A stretch of 64,000 nt of DNA from positions 191,001-255,000 of the forward strand of contig NZ_CP039646.1 in assembly GCF_004923315.1 (NCBI RefSeq), given 5' to 3'. The DNA is from Azospirillum sp. TSA2s (GTDB lineage Bacteria; Pseudomonadota; Alphaproteobacteria; Azospirillales; Azospirillaceae). Positions 1,170 through 54,985 of the stretch are shown piece by piece. The first letter of the stretch is position 1. Each line of letters begins with the position of its first letter. The notes under the pieces are model-generated. The model was given only the letters and a program-made list of their open reading frames with translations. It did no database searches and was not told the DNA's origin. The position numbers and the translations under genes were made by a program.

Positions 1170-1271
1170 CCCTCTCCCGTCCCGGGAGAGGAAGGGGTGA
1201 GGCAAGAATCCCGAACCGCATGGTTGCTTGGTTCACCCCTCACCCTTCCCTCTCCCGGGGCGGGAGAGGGA
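1170..1271. repeat. Paired inverted GC-rich intergenic repeat, copy A
   Basis: Two arms, each a small palindrome of the form CCCTCTCCC...GGGAGAGG followed by GGGTGAG, face each other around a loop of about 35 bases. The same two-arm design recurs at 47471, 50067, 52284 and 54881. The layout is like REP/BIME elements. It lies after the membrane protein gene and may also act in RNA 3'-end formation. Confidence 0.75.
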
Positions 1272-12031: not shown

Positions 12032-12398
12032 TCTTGCCTCGTCATTGTGCCGAGGAGGAGAACGCTAGCAACCCATGAAACTGTCTGCAACCACAAGAAA
12101 TTTTCTGCAGTTATATGATATCGTATGAAATTATATGAAATGGAGTCTGCGAAACTCTGCGAACCTTTGCGAATGTCTGCGATTTTGACTCGGTTGGGAT
12201 ATGCCTTCGCAGAGTCTTGCTCATAATTTCATACGATTTCATGTTTTGTGCTTGCAAGATGTGTGTTGTTGGCCAACACGGGGAAGCCGTGTCGTCCCCC
12301 ACCACCCGCGCTTACTCGCCCATCGGGCTCGACACTGCTCTTGCTCTGCGAGGCCTACGGCGGCTGCCGCCGCTTTGAACGCCAGGGAGGAAATCACG
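12032..12398. other. oriT-like intergenic region with phased repeats
   Basis: This gene-free, AT-rich stretch lies between divergent traK-like and traJ-like genes, the place of oriT in P-type systems. It holds four tandem 10-base repeats of TCTGCGAANN (12146-12185) and an inverted copy TTCGCAGAGT at 12206-12215. A 15-base inverted repeat, ATCGTATGAAATTAT (12120-12134), has its complement at 12223-12237. There is also a palindrome TGTTGGCCAACA (12267-12278) and a hairpin ACACGG-GGAAG-CCGTGT (12276-12292). No nic consensus could be assigned with confidence. Confidence 0.5.
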
Positions 12399-50066: not shown

Positions 50067-50172
50067 CCCCACCCCAACCCTCCCCCGCTGGGCGGGAGAG
50101 GGAGCGAGTGTTTGGGCGGGAGAGCGGCGGCAGTCCCCTCCTCCGCCCAGCGGGGGAGGGTTAGGGTGGGGG
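50067..50172. repeat. Paired inverted GC-rich intergenic repeat, copy C
   Basis: Arms CCAACCCTCCCCCGCTGGGCGG and CCGCCCAGCGGGGGAGGGTTAGG are near-perfect complements around a short loop, just upstream of the tyrR-like gene. It is closest in sequence to copy E at 54881. Confidence 0.75.
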
Positions 50173-51911: not shown

Positions 51912-52696
51912 GGTTGGACCACCAGAACGACCAGCCGTTTTGGGCCGTGGACGCCGTAGGCCAGCGTCTGCTCGATGTCGGCGGTCTTGCTGGGACCGGA
52001 CACCAGCAGCACGTTGGTCGGCATGGCATCCGCCCACCCCTGCTCGCGCATGGCCTGCAGGAACGTGTCGAAGAGCGCGTCGGTGCGCAGGATTGCGATG
52101 TGGATGTGCGGGACCAGCGACAGGGTGCGCGGCTCGTCGGCGGTCGGCCACAGGATCAGGCTGCCGGTCTCGGCGATGGCGCCGCGGGTGGTGGTGAGGC
52201 CGGCCTCGATGGACTCGAACAGCTGCGGCTTGAGGTCTTCGAGAGGACGGTCGTAGGGGATGAGAACCGGACCCGGCGCAGATCCCCTCTCCCCCCCGGG
52301 GAGAGGGTTAGGGTGAGGGGGATTCGTGGCGGGACCTTCGGGAGAATCATGCGATGCTTCCCCCTCACCCCGACCCTCTCCCCGGGGGGGAGAGGGGGAT
52401 TCAGCCTTCCACCCCTCGACCAGCCGCTTCCCCGCCTCCGTTGCCGGAGCGTAGAGCAGCGACCCCACACCCTCCCGCGCCAGGAATTCCCGCAGCACCA
52501 CCGGCCAGTCGGCCTCCGTCGCGTCGAGGAACTCCGTATGCACCGCCTCCATCAGGCGGCGGATGCGGGGCAGGCGCTCCTCAGGTGCCCAGTGCTTCGC
52601 CTCGATCGGCGCGAAATCCGACACGGGCGGGGTCAGCGGGTGGGCGTCGCGCGTCGTGCGCAGCTTCGTCAGGATCGAGTTGCGGGAGTCAGACAT
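51908..52696 (-). CDS. lutC: LutC/LUD-domain lactate-utilisation protein carrying an in-frame repeat insertion
   Basis: A 262-residue LUD-domain subunit of the LutABC L-lactate dehydrogenase complex. The core is clear: APATEAGKRLVEGW, then VLIPYDRPLEDLKPQLFESI, TRGAIAETGSLILWP and TNVLLVSGPSKTADIEQTL. Between residues about 98 and 139 lies a run of Pro, Gly, Arg and Glu (PSPPRGEGRGEGE...HPNPLPGGERG) that is encoded by repeat copy D and has no place in the family. The frame stays open across it. Without it the length is close to the usual 220. The ATG overlaps the end of lutB by eight bases. Confidence 0.88.
   Translation of the reverse strand: MSDSRNSILTKLRTTRDAHPLTPPVSDFAPIEAKHWAPEERLPRIRRLMEAVHTEFLDATEADWPVVLREFLAREGVGSLLYAPATEAGKRLVEGWKAESPSPPRGEGRGEGEASHDSPEGPATNPPHPNPLPGGERGSAPGPVLIPYDRPLEDLKPQLFESIEAGLTTTRGAIAETGSLILWPTADEPRTLSLVPHIHIAILRTDALFDTFLQAMREQGWADAMPTNVLLVSGPSKTADIEQTLAYGVHGPKRLVVLVVQP
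52284..52399. repeat. Paired inverted GC-rich repeat, copy D, inside lutC
   Basis: The left arm CCCCTCTCCC...GAGAGGGTTAGGGTGAGGGG faces the right arm CCCCTCACCCCGACCCTCTCC...GGAGAGGGGG across about 38 bases. It has the same design as the intergenic copies, but lies wholly within the coding frame of lutC and adds about 42 codons. Confidence 0.85.
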
Positions 52697-54113
52697 CGGG
52701 AATCCCCTTGGCGCGGGCGAGGTCGTGCAGGGTGCGGCCGGCGAAGCGCGGCTTGGTGCGGACGTTCGTCCACTCCTTCAGCATGGGCAGCGACGACGGC
52801 GCCGCGTTGCCGAGCTTGCTCATTGCCAGCGTGGCGATGCGGTAGGCGGTTGGGGAGGCGTTCATCGCCGCCCAGCCGCTCCACACCATCGATTCCGCAC
52901 GGCTGGCCTTGGCGCCGCCGTCCTTCACCGCCCCGCCGGGTTTCACCGCCTCGACCCGCAGACGCCCCATGATCTCGACGATGGGGATCTTCACCGGGCA
53001 AATCTCGACGCAGGCGTTGCACATGGTGCAGGCGTGGGGCATGGCGCCGCGCTTGGCCAACCCCTCGATCTGCGGCACCAGGATCTTGCCGATCGGGCCG
53101 GGATAGGGCGCCTCATAGGCATGGCCGCCGACCTGGGTGTAGACCGGGCAATGATTCATGCAGGCGCCGCAGCGGATGCAGCGCAACGTGTCGCGCAGTT
53201 CCGGGTCGGCGTAGATGCTGGAGCGGCCATTGTCGAGGATGACCAGATGCACCTCGCGCGGGCCGTCCTTCTCGCCGTCCTTGCGCGGGCCGGAGATCAT
53301 GTTGACGTAGGTGGTGATCGGCTGGCCGGTGGCGGAGCGCGGCAGCAGGCTGATGACCGGCGGCACGTCCTCCAGCCTTTCCACCACCTTCTCAAGACCC
53401 ATAAAGGCGATGTGGACCGGCGGCACCGTGGTGCACATGCGGCCGTTGCCCTCATTCTCGATCAGGCAGAGGGTGCCGGTCTCCGCCACCGCCGCGTTGA
53501 CGCCGGACATGCCGACGTCGGCGGCCTGGAACTTGGCGCGCAGCACCCGGCGGGCGAGGTCGGTCAGATAGGCCGCGTCCTCCCGGCTTTCGGCATCCTT
53601 GATCTTGCGCTTGAACAGATGGGCGATCTGCTTCGTGTTCAGGTGGATCGCCGGCATGATGATGTGCGACGGCATGGTGCCGTCCAACTGCACGATGTAC
53701 TCGCCGAGGTCGCTTTCCAGAACCTCAATGCCGTCCTTTTCCAGCACGGCATTCAGATGCATCTCCTCGGTCACCATCGACTTGCCCTTGACCACCAGCT
53801 TGGCGTTGGCCTTGTGCAGGATGTCGAGCGCGATGGCGTTGGCCTCCTCCGTCGTGGCGGCCCAATGGACGGTGATGCCGTTGCGGGTGCAGTTCTCCTC
53901 CAGCTTCTCCAGCAGTTCTGGCAGTTTCGACAGGGCGCGCAGCCGGACCGAGGCGGCCAGCGCCCGCACGCCATGCCATTCGCCCGTGTCAGAGAACTGG
54001 GCGGCGCGCTTGGTCATCAGCCCGTCCATGGCGCGGCGGAAATTGCCGCGCAGCTGCGGGTCGGCCAGCGCCGCGCGCGATGCGGCGGCGAAATCCGGTG
54101 CATTACCGTCCAT
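52689..54113 (-). CDS. lutB: LutB iron-sulphur subunit
   Basis: A 474-residue protein with an N-terminal LUD domain (about 60-290, KLVVKGKSMVTEEMHLN and SGVNAAVAETGTLCLIENEG) and two 4Fe-4S motifs, CIRCGACMNHCP near residue 306 and CTMCNACVEICP near residue 358. It carries electrons within LutABC. It overlaps both neighbours, lutA by about 11 bases and lutC by eight, so the three genes are tightly coupled. Confidence 0.95.
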   Translation of the reverse strand: MDGNAPDFAAASRAALADPQLRGNFRRAMDGLMTKRAAQFSDTGEWHGVRALAASVRLRALSKLPELLEKLEENCTRNGITVHWAATTEEANAIALDILHKANAKLVVKGKSMVTEEMHLNAVLEKDGIEVLESDLGEYIVQLDGTMPSHIIMPAIHLNTKQIAHLFKRKIKDAESREDAAYLTDLARRVLRAKFQAADVGMSGVNAAVAETGTLCLIENEGNGRMCTTVPPVHIAFMGLEKVVERLEDVPPVISLLPRSATGQPITTYVNMISGPRKDGEKDGPREVHLVILDNGRSSIYADPELRDTLRCIRCGACMNHCPVYTQVGGHAYEAPYPGPIGKILVPQIEGLAKRGAMPHACTMCNACVEICPVKIPIVEIMGRLRVEAVKPGGAVKDGGAKASRAESMVWSGWAAMNASPTAYRIATLAMSKLGNAAPSSLPMLKEWTNVRTKPRFAGRTLHDLARAKGIPDV

Positions 54114-54852
54114 GGATGCGCTCCTTCAGGAACTGGGCGATGTGCTGGCCGCGCGCGGCCTTGGCGCCGGCCTCCAGCGCGCCGGTGATGTTCAGCAGGC
54201 ACCCACAATCGCCCGACACCACGCGGGCGGCGCCGGTGCCCTCGATGTCCGCGACCTTGTCGCCGACCATCGCGGCGGAGATCTCCGGATGGCGCACGGC
54301 GAAGGTGCCGCCGAAGCCGCAGCATTCCTTCTCCCGCTTCAGCTCCACCAGTTCGACGTTGGCGAGCTGGCGCAGGAGCGCCTTCGGCTCCTCCACCACG
54401 CCCATCTCGCGCTGGGCATGGCAGGAGGCATGCCAGGTGACGCGCACCGGCTCTCCCTGGTCGGTGAGTTGGACGTCCAGCACATGGACCAGGAACTGGG
54501 TCAGCTCCCACACGCGGGACGCCACCTGCACTGCCTTGGCCTCGTCCGGTTCGCCGCGGAACAGGTCGGGCCAGTGCTTCTTCATCATGCCGGCGCAGGA
54601 GCCCGACGGCACGACGATGGGATCGTCGCCGGGGAACAGGTCCAACTGCGCGCGGGCAACCTTCAGGGCGTCGGCGCGGTAGCCGGAATTGTAGGCCGGC
54701 TGGCCGCAGCAGCTCTGCCCCTGGGGGAAGACGACGGTCAGGCCCTGGGATTGCAGCAGCTCGATCCCCGCCATACCGGCGTCGGGGAAAAACAGGTCGA
54801 CGAGACAGGTGCCGAAGTAATAGACGCGGGTGGGTTTGGGGGTGGCGGGCAT
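54103..54852 (-). CDS. lutA: LutA Fe-S oxidoreductase subunit (CCG domains)
   Basis: A 249-residue protein with the two cysteine-rich CCG repeats of the GlpC/HdrB type: FPQGQSCCGQPAYNSGY with CAGMMKKHWP, and ECCGFGGTFAVRHPEIS with ASCHAQREMG. It is the first gene of lutABC. A GGAAACCCC stretch precedes the ATG. The paired repeat at 54881 separates it from the upstream D-lactate dehydrogenase gene. Confidence 0.94.
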   Translation of the reverse strand: MPATPKPTRVYYFGTCLVDLFFPDAGMAGIELLQSQGLTVVFPQGQSCCGQPAYNSGYRADALKVARAQLDLFPGDDPIVVPSGSCAGMMKKHWPDLFRGEPDEAKAVQVASRVWELTQFLVHVLDVQLTDQGEPVRVTWHASCHAQREMGVVEEPKALLRQLANVELVELKREKECCGFGGTFAVRHPEISAAMVGDKVADIEGTGAARVVSGDCGCLLNITGALEAGAKAARGQHIAQFLKERIHGR

Positions 54853-54880: not shown

Positions 54881-54985
54881 CCCCCACCTAACCTCCCCCG
54901 CTGGGCGGGGGAGGGACTGCCGCTGCCTTATCGAACAAGCGCTTGTCCCCTCCCCCGCCCAGCGGGGGAGGGTTAGGGTGGGGGT
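54881..54985. repeat. Paired inverted GC-rich intergenic repeat, copy E
   Basis: Arms CCCCCACCTAACCTCCCCCGCT and AGCGGGGGAGGGTTAGGGTGGG are complementary nearly end to end, with an inner GGCGGGGGAGGG/CCCTCCCCCGCC pairing. It lies between dld and lutA on the same transcript and could tune their relative expression. Confidence 0.75.

Follow-up and report, generated by a model that had tools for sequence, protein, structure and literature searches.

Palindromic repeats that are read as part of proteins are best known from Rickettsia. Palindromic sequences also occur as BIMEs and as REPs borne by RAYTs, which consist of inverted hairpin units with a spacer and which are found in many copies near the 3' ends of genes. 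In the available parts of two studies, the Rickettsia palindromic elements (RPEs) are described as repeats of about 100-150 bp that are inserted in frame in unrelated genes, in regions that are solvent-exposed in the protein (PMC3767692, PMC10969869). In 18 Rickettsia genes, different RPE groups were observed to occupy the same site in different species, for which hotspots are discussed, and since every orthologue of these 18 genes contains an insert, gain and loss are hard to follow in this genus (PMC3767692, as far as its text was accessible). A further described system comprises the GTAG and CGTC REPs, which the accessible text of Di Nocera et al. 2013 (PMC3733652) portrays as small palindromes that are often arranged as head-to-head pairs and located mainly between convergent or tandem genes, with those of the CGTC family having an 8-9 bp stem, whose first two positions are complementary A-T residues, a loop of 4-5 nt and a tag for which the variants TGTC and CCTC are allowed. 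The same part of this source lists A. lipoferum as host of a CGTC REP family and reports intragenic REPs in several species, some of them in frame. Many of these reside in genes of DNA repair, DnaE2 among them, and recB of two Xanthomonas species contains different REPs at roughly corresponding positions (PMC3733652). Finally, the enterobacterial repeats RU-1/2/3 are, in the available part of their description, MITE-like sequences of 103-168 bp that are translated in annotated genes (PMC2759123, Delihas 2007).

The palindrome investigated in this study resides in the lutC gene of Azospirillum sp. TSA2s (genome G000), within an analysed stretch of 64,000 nucleotides that we refer to as the window (Table 1). 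In our preferred reading, to which we assign a probability of about 0.8, this segment would be a copy of a dispersed REP-like Azospirillum element in a linker of LutC, where it is read as a disordered loop of a working protein. Like the GTAG/CGTC REPs, as far as these are described in the accessible text, the Azospirillum elements are paired palindromes, some of which are located in frame in genes including dnaE2. With the RPEs, in the parts of their description at hand, they share the in-frame location in genes of conserved proteins and the presence of different types at one site, but unlike in case of RPEs, their host is free-living with a large genome and the lutC site is unoccupied in many of its close relatives. 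The translation of a repeat inside a gene is also found in the available account of RU-1/2/3, although in other hosts and with a likeness at the level of description, and the genome differs from those with RAYT-borne REPs by the absence of a recognised RAYT. The preliminary description of the locus knew of no such case in this group of bacteria; intragenic in-frame REPs outside Rickettsia are already published, and A. lipoferum is listed as REP host, in the accessible part of PMC3733652. In-frame insertion of palindromes is thus a known phenomenon and the distinct part of the present case is another element family, in which gains, changes of type and losses can be traced with unusual clarity. 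The literature searched, which was covered in part and without the additional files of PMC3733652, contains no report of these elements in Azospirillum genes, no mention of the lutC case or of the element at the RuvC-DUF559 junction described below, and no match to the peptide strings of the element; lutC and ruv are absent from the main text of PMC3733652.

Table 1. Coordinates of the lutC element, its host gene and related features in the window.
Feature	Coordinates	Strand	Basis or remark
Paired repeat of same design, different stem sequence	1170..1270	.	Inverted-repeat listing of window
Paired repeat of same design, different stem sequence, apparently intergenic	50067..50171	.	Inverted repeats and ORFs
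lutC, LUD domain protein, insert host, 262 aa	51908..52696	-	Open frame; Pfam LUD_dom; PDB match 2g40
LutC residues 100-139 (approx.), element-derived loop codons	52280..52399	-	pLDDT <50 at 100-118, 120-125, 127-139
3' arm on minus coding strand, read PHPNPLPGGERG	52284..52322	.	39 nt, 95% complementary to 52359-52397
Small head hairpin in one arm, 10-nt stem and 3-nt loop	52285..52307	.	
Inter-arm spacer (loop)	52323..52358	.	Resembles the lutC spacer of three further species
5' arm on minus strand, read PSPPRGEGRGEG	52359..52397	.	39 nt, pairs with 52284-52322
Small head hairpin in other arm, 10-nt stem and 3-nt loop	52374..52396	.	
lutB, open, 474 aa, upstream of lutC	52689..54113	-	Pfam LUD_dom, LutB_C and Fer4 families
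lutA, open, 249 aa, upstream of lutB	54103..54852	-	Pfam CCG
Paired repeat of same design, different stem sequence, in gap between lutA and next gene	54881..54982	.	Inverted repeats and ORFs

The element consists of two arms that are spaced by 36 nt, and the proposed in-frame location of this two-arm repeat is borne out by a lutC frame that contains zero internal stops. The assignment of the host as LutC is supported by a LUD domain (E 4.5e-30 for LUD_dom) and by the lutABC neighbourhood. The strands of the head-hairpin stem, CCCTCTCCCC and GGGGAGAGGG, are C/G-rich and pair over 10 bp with 3 nt between them, features that are unlike the stem and loop of CGTC REPs in the accessible description (PMC3733652). 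Terminal inverted repeats, a trait of MITEs, are present, and the family displays the two inverted hairpin units with spacer and the many copies that are characteristic of BIMEs. For the coding strand of positions 52274-52409, a folding energy of -103.4 kcal/mol was calculated, compared to -64.8 (sd 4.6) for dinucleotide shuffles (z -8.4), none of which was as good in 200 cases. No RNA family was assigned to the element at the gathering threshold in a scan with Rfam, whose sole hit within the window corresponds to a traJ-II RNA (12252-12355, 47.1 bits) that is adjoined by an A+T-rich inverted repeat (arms 12115-12134 and 12223-12242). The resemblance to intergenic copies in the window that had been noted at the outset concerns the architecture, which recurs at three places (Table 1), and does not extend to the stem sequences, which differ.

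Closer copies are found elsewhere in the genome (8.1 Mb, 10 contigs), with up to 89-90% identity to the lutC element over at least 100 nt. At least 95 pieces match the stretch of the element, as counted from 40 scored of 185 candidates, and its tail motif GAGGGTNAGGGTGAGGGG finds 186 matches genome-wide at two mismatches or fewer, which take in sister types with GGGTGGGGG, compared to one for the reversed control. A longer, related element, termed type B to distinguish it from type A in lutC of TSA2s, constitutes the lutC insert of other species and, with at least 80 match rows in the genome (40 of 124 candidates scored), is therefore dispersed in this genome too. Within the 53 type-A and 27 type-B places that were fetched, the element was located in 52 (lutC included) and 27, respectively, which provides 51 type-A copies besides the one in lutC. 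The exact 16-mer GGGTTAGGGTGAGGGG is present in 39 of 45 Azospirillum genomes, with the reversed control at 0 in each. Judged by the codon usage of their flanks, 20 of the 79 copies lie between convergent genes, 22 between genes on the same strand, none between divergent genes and 4 within genes, with 33 being unclear. A short repeat beginning with GCTTTCGGC sits in the type-A head hairpin at L249 (G013) and in several copies, such as L129, L139 and L169. On average, 2.13 of six frames are open in a type-A copy compared to 3.29 in shuffles, and 2.81 compared to 3.25 in type B, and element lengths leave remainders of 0, 1 and 2 upon division by three in 19, 15 and 18 cases for type A and in 10, 11 and 6 cases for type B; with these fewer open frames and the spread of lengths across all phases, the element shows no adaptation to coding.

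With respect to mobilisation, the search for a RAYT in the genome returned as only Y1_Tnp match one that covers 47 of 121 positions. This partial match, at L127 (G000:C3:199504), is contained in an open frame of 111 aa. Among the 45 genomes, Y1_Tnp matched in 11 and found no match in 34, and no plausible mobilising enzyme was recognised by this search. The genomes without match include G003, G004, G005, G013, G020, G031 and G033, each with at least 43 copies of the 16-mer, and in light of such element-rich genomes a RAYT or another Y1 transposase is unsupported as current partner. No target-site duplication was seen by eye when filled and empty alleles were compared at lutC and at two intergenic loci, whose flanks have diverged. 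The NCBIfam library contains a model of RPEs, and the insert peptides of both types match 0 families of this library at E values up to 1, in a comparison that proceeded via the library models. Strict GTAG and CGTC tags within 8 nt of an end are rare, being found in 1 and 2 of the 52 type-A and in 0 and 1 of the 27 type-B copies, respectively, in a count confined to these strict motifs.

The distribution of the element among relatives was investigated in the same 45 genomes, in 44 of which LutC was read (G030 was excluded since its match runs through the repeat only), with linker DNA read for 24 of these orthologues and insert types assigned by reading the sequence. A full element is present in nine proteins (254-276 aa), which is of type A in G000, G013, G036 and G020 and of type B in G044, G026, G034, G012 and G011, a single type-A arm is found in two (G002 and G041, 229 and 234 aa), and the linker is empty in 33 (218-233 aa), among which G040 and G021 retain apparent element ends. 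At the level of sequence, the comparison thus establishes that differing types, one arm, stubs or nothing may occupy the same site. The net addition in TSA2s amounts to about 42 residues, as initially estimated, because the empty orthologues of its nearest relatives mostly contain 220-221 aa compared to 262 aa. The insert is not unique to this strain, a question raised at the beginning, since the site is filled by a full element or one arm in 10 further genomes of the 44, and all 11 full- or half-insert genes are open with preserved frame. The presence of the same non-palindromic segment throughout the genus, which in the preliminary description would have signified an ancestral linker, was not found. 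Although the short variable linker that occupies the insert position also in empty orthologues would suit an ancestral low-complexity linker of only seemingly palindromic character, the lack of the segment in 33 of 44 orthologues, the similar dispersed copies elsewhere and the occurrence of two different repeat families at one site make this origin exceedingly improbable. A faulty assembly is hardly conceivable either: palindromes are difficult to assemble, an odd poly-Gly/Pro tract is present at the RuvC junction in G028 and the sequence of one further RuvC junction could not be followed to its end, but 11 genomes from different species share the site of their full or half inserts and all of these are in frame.

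The consequences for the protein are reflected in an AlphaFold2 model of LutC based on 36 sequences. In this model, the insert lies between a helix (87-97) and a strand (144-147) and is predicted with mean pLDDT values of 38-44 in blocks, compared to 78-94 across the preceding 50 and 81-88 across the following 40 residues. The model matches 2g40 in a Foldseek search (TM 0.82 by target length), and the empty LutC of G024 is predicted with the same order of secondary structure elements at a mean pLDDT of 82.3 versus 74.0 with the insert. The C-terminal region 235-251 around the near-invariant SGPSKTADIEQTLAYGVHGPK is of low model confidence, which is not caused by the insert since it is observed in filled and empty models. 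Based on these predictions, the insert most likely constitutes a disordered surface loop in a LUD fold, in agreement with the tolerated loop that had been put forward as one of two possibilities. The other possibility, an insert that impairs LutC with the gene being en route to a pseudogene, would be suggested by the addition of about 42 residues and the strong mRNA hairpin, by the frameshifted filled DUF1365 allele in G025 and the presence of the element with a lost frame in RuvC of G009 and G011, and by a pooled pN/pS of 0.37 to the right of the site in the three type-B carriers (3 pairs, 0.27 to the left). Against it stand the in-frame location of all 11 full or half inserts, the open lutA and lutB genes, the order of secondary structure shared by filled and empty models and the pooled pN/pS of the type-A carriers of 0.27 left and 0.14 right of the site (6 pairs), which matches the 0.24 and 0.17 of empty relatives (36 pairs). 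Pooled pN/pS was used as measure of constraint because the contrast between codon positions 1-2 and fourfold sites is weak to the left of the site (0.073 versus 0.06 in one pair). Constraint is not relaxed in type-A carriers and the case of type B is less clear. As purifying selection on the genes with insert equals that on the empty ones, most clearly for type A, we consider impairment very unlikely; judged from its sequence, LutC is most likely made and functional despite the insert.

A pronounced feature of the four type-A inserts in lutC is the conservation of their arms, with 2 of 40 and 0 of 37 columns being variable, compared to 10 of 38 in the loop (Fisher p 2.4e-4). Pooled over pairs, differences amount to 138/691 (0.20) at fourfold sites of lutC and to 35/228 (0.15) at sites of the insert loop, the loop thus drifting about as silent sites and the arms being almost fixed. 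The low variability of the arms in four species and the recurrence of an element-like linker between RuvC and DUF559 in most of the genus would both agree with an element that is retained for a function, either as useful linker peptide or as mRNA hairpin regulating lutC. This explanation appears unlikely in view of the absence of the element at lutC in 33 of 44 relatives, the reduced number of open frames in type-A copies with lengths in all three phases, and the properties of intergenic copies. The latter were followed at two loci that were sought in 11 relatives and that were readable in 10 of them at one and in 11 at the other. In G000, G013 and G036, both loci contain type-A copies that, as compared by eye, share near-identical arms but differ in their loops, and in other species the same loci are either empty or occupied by type B, by a nested element, by stubs of short length or by a further repeat. 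Arm conservation therefore requires no function in LutC and may instead be a consequence of exchange among copies. At L253 (G022), the counterpart of the intergenic locus L132, the same site is taken by a palindromic repeat of another kind.

When compared to the other three type-A inserts of lutC and the 51 other type-A copies of G000, the best match of each lutC insert is another lutC insert, which extends to the two best matches for G000, G013 and G036 and to the three best for G020, in a comparison where all dispersed copies come from G000. The insert of G020 lacks 18 nt and, if viewed from G000, G013 and G036, ranks below several G000 copies. By this measure, the four inserts of the same type look like they share one origin. 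In a tree of lutB and lutC DNA built without the linker, the carriers do not form a clade (AU test of carrier monophyly, p 5.7e-4 for type A and 7e-6 for type B), which excludes a single insertion that was inherited without loss or transfer, and the four linker states require at least 9 changes, with 3 being the minimum possible. The apparent single origin of type A in carriers that are not a clade thus implies that loss or exchange of alleles has followed. In the same tree, the empty G024 is the sister of G000 and G040 that of G013 (SH-aLRT 97). The empty linker of G040 reads GGERG, as does the end of the G013 element, and its sisterhood to G013 together with this retained motif makes loss of the element in G040 the best reading, a step that rests on the DNA tree since the lutBC protein tree sets G013 and G040 apart. 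To the right of the site, the first 150 nt contain 2 differences between G000 and G024, with many more differences on the left. A recombination breakpoint at the lutC site is suggestive at most, as no clear donor emerges from the sequence on the left. In the mechanism that we propose, a dispersed, apparently non-autonomous, paired BIME-like palindromic element would have entered the helix-to-strand linker of LutC, where it would have survived owing to a length and orientation that kept the frame open and to the structural freedom of the linker. Its translation would yield a disordered loop rich in Pro, Gly, Arg and Glu in a LutC that keeps its function, and deletion between short repeats as well as exchange, either with further copies of the element or across species, may have acted later.

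Copies in other coding sequences, for which a search had been suggested in the preliminary description, were found in the genome. Under strict criteria, the codon-usage scan of the 79 copies, which is biased towards in-frame cases, identifies four that are intragenic and in frame (in lutC, a DUF1365 gene, dnaE2 and ruvC), and the reading of ten spanning frames adds two further likely cases, L200 (a histidine phosphatase by Pfam) and L203 (without Pfam family). At L159, the element forms, by reading, the C-terminal tail of an apparent response regulator or hybrid kinase. For DnaE2, 17 of 45 genomes contain one match that spans the linker, and all 12 of these that were fetched carry an in-frame element in the HHH_6 region, which is of one type in G000, G036, G022, G013, G020, G030 and G040, whereas other types are present in G028, in G037 and in G006, G038 and G042. 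The remaining genomes include matches split at the linker, which we take as empty or otherwise filled. In the DUF1365 gene, of which 12 loci were fetched with G020, G021 and G013 being outside the reading, the element is in frame in G000 and G024, the site is empty in G022, G036, G033, G027 and G018, a collapsed stub in which both element ends are apparently joined is found in frame at L223 (G031), and at L222 (G025) the element is present but the frame is lost, demonstrating that insertions or later indels can break genes. Of 44 RuvC genes read (L266-L309; G000:C9:2076356-2077396), 38 continue in frame into a DUF559 domain, and in 37 of these the junction contains a peptide motif that resembles the element and that was defined by eye, with G043 being fused without it. 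Among the six unfused genes, the motif is absent in G014, G016 and G017, the sequence of G033 could not be followed through the junction, and in G009 and G011 the motif is followed by a loss of frame or a stop. An exact inverted repeat of at least 12 nt is present in 25 of the 40 RuvC linkers with motif, the others, which are mostly linkers with a single arm, containing repeats of 9-11 nt. At L302 (G028), a long poly-Gly/Pro tract at the junction resembles an assembly fault of a palindrome.

Taken together, these cases allow for a broader proposal, which we put forward tentatively with odds somewhat short of even. In this proposal, the LutC linker, the HHH_6 region of DnaE2 and the RuvC-DUF559 junction would be standing docking sites, which palindromic families enter, swap, collapse and leave, mostly in frame, with their arms being homogenised by exchange with dispersed copies, and where the element in ruvC would have turned into, or would originally have been, the linker between the domains of a gene fusion that is kept across most of the genus.

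Our work carries a warning for annotation, as stretches rich in Pro, Gly, Arg and Glu of this kind are repeat DNA rather than conserved domains. In Azospirillum, a free-living genus with many sequenced species, alleles that are filled, half-filled, collapsed, frameshifted or empty are found side by side, and this series makes it testable whether small DNA repeats are a source of new disordered loops and linkers in proteins and whether palindromes aid the fusion of genes, as in case of RuvC and DUF559.
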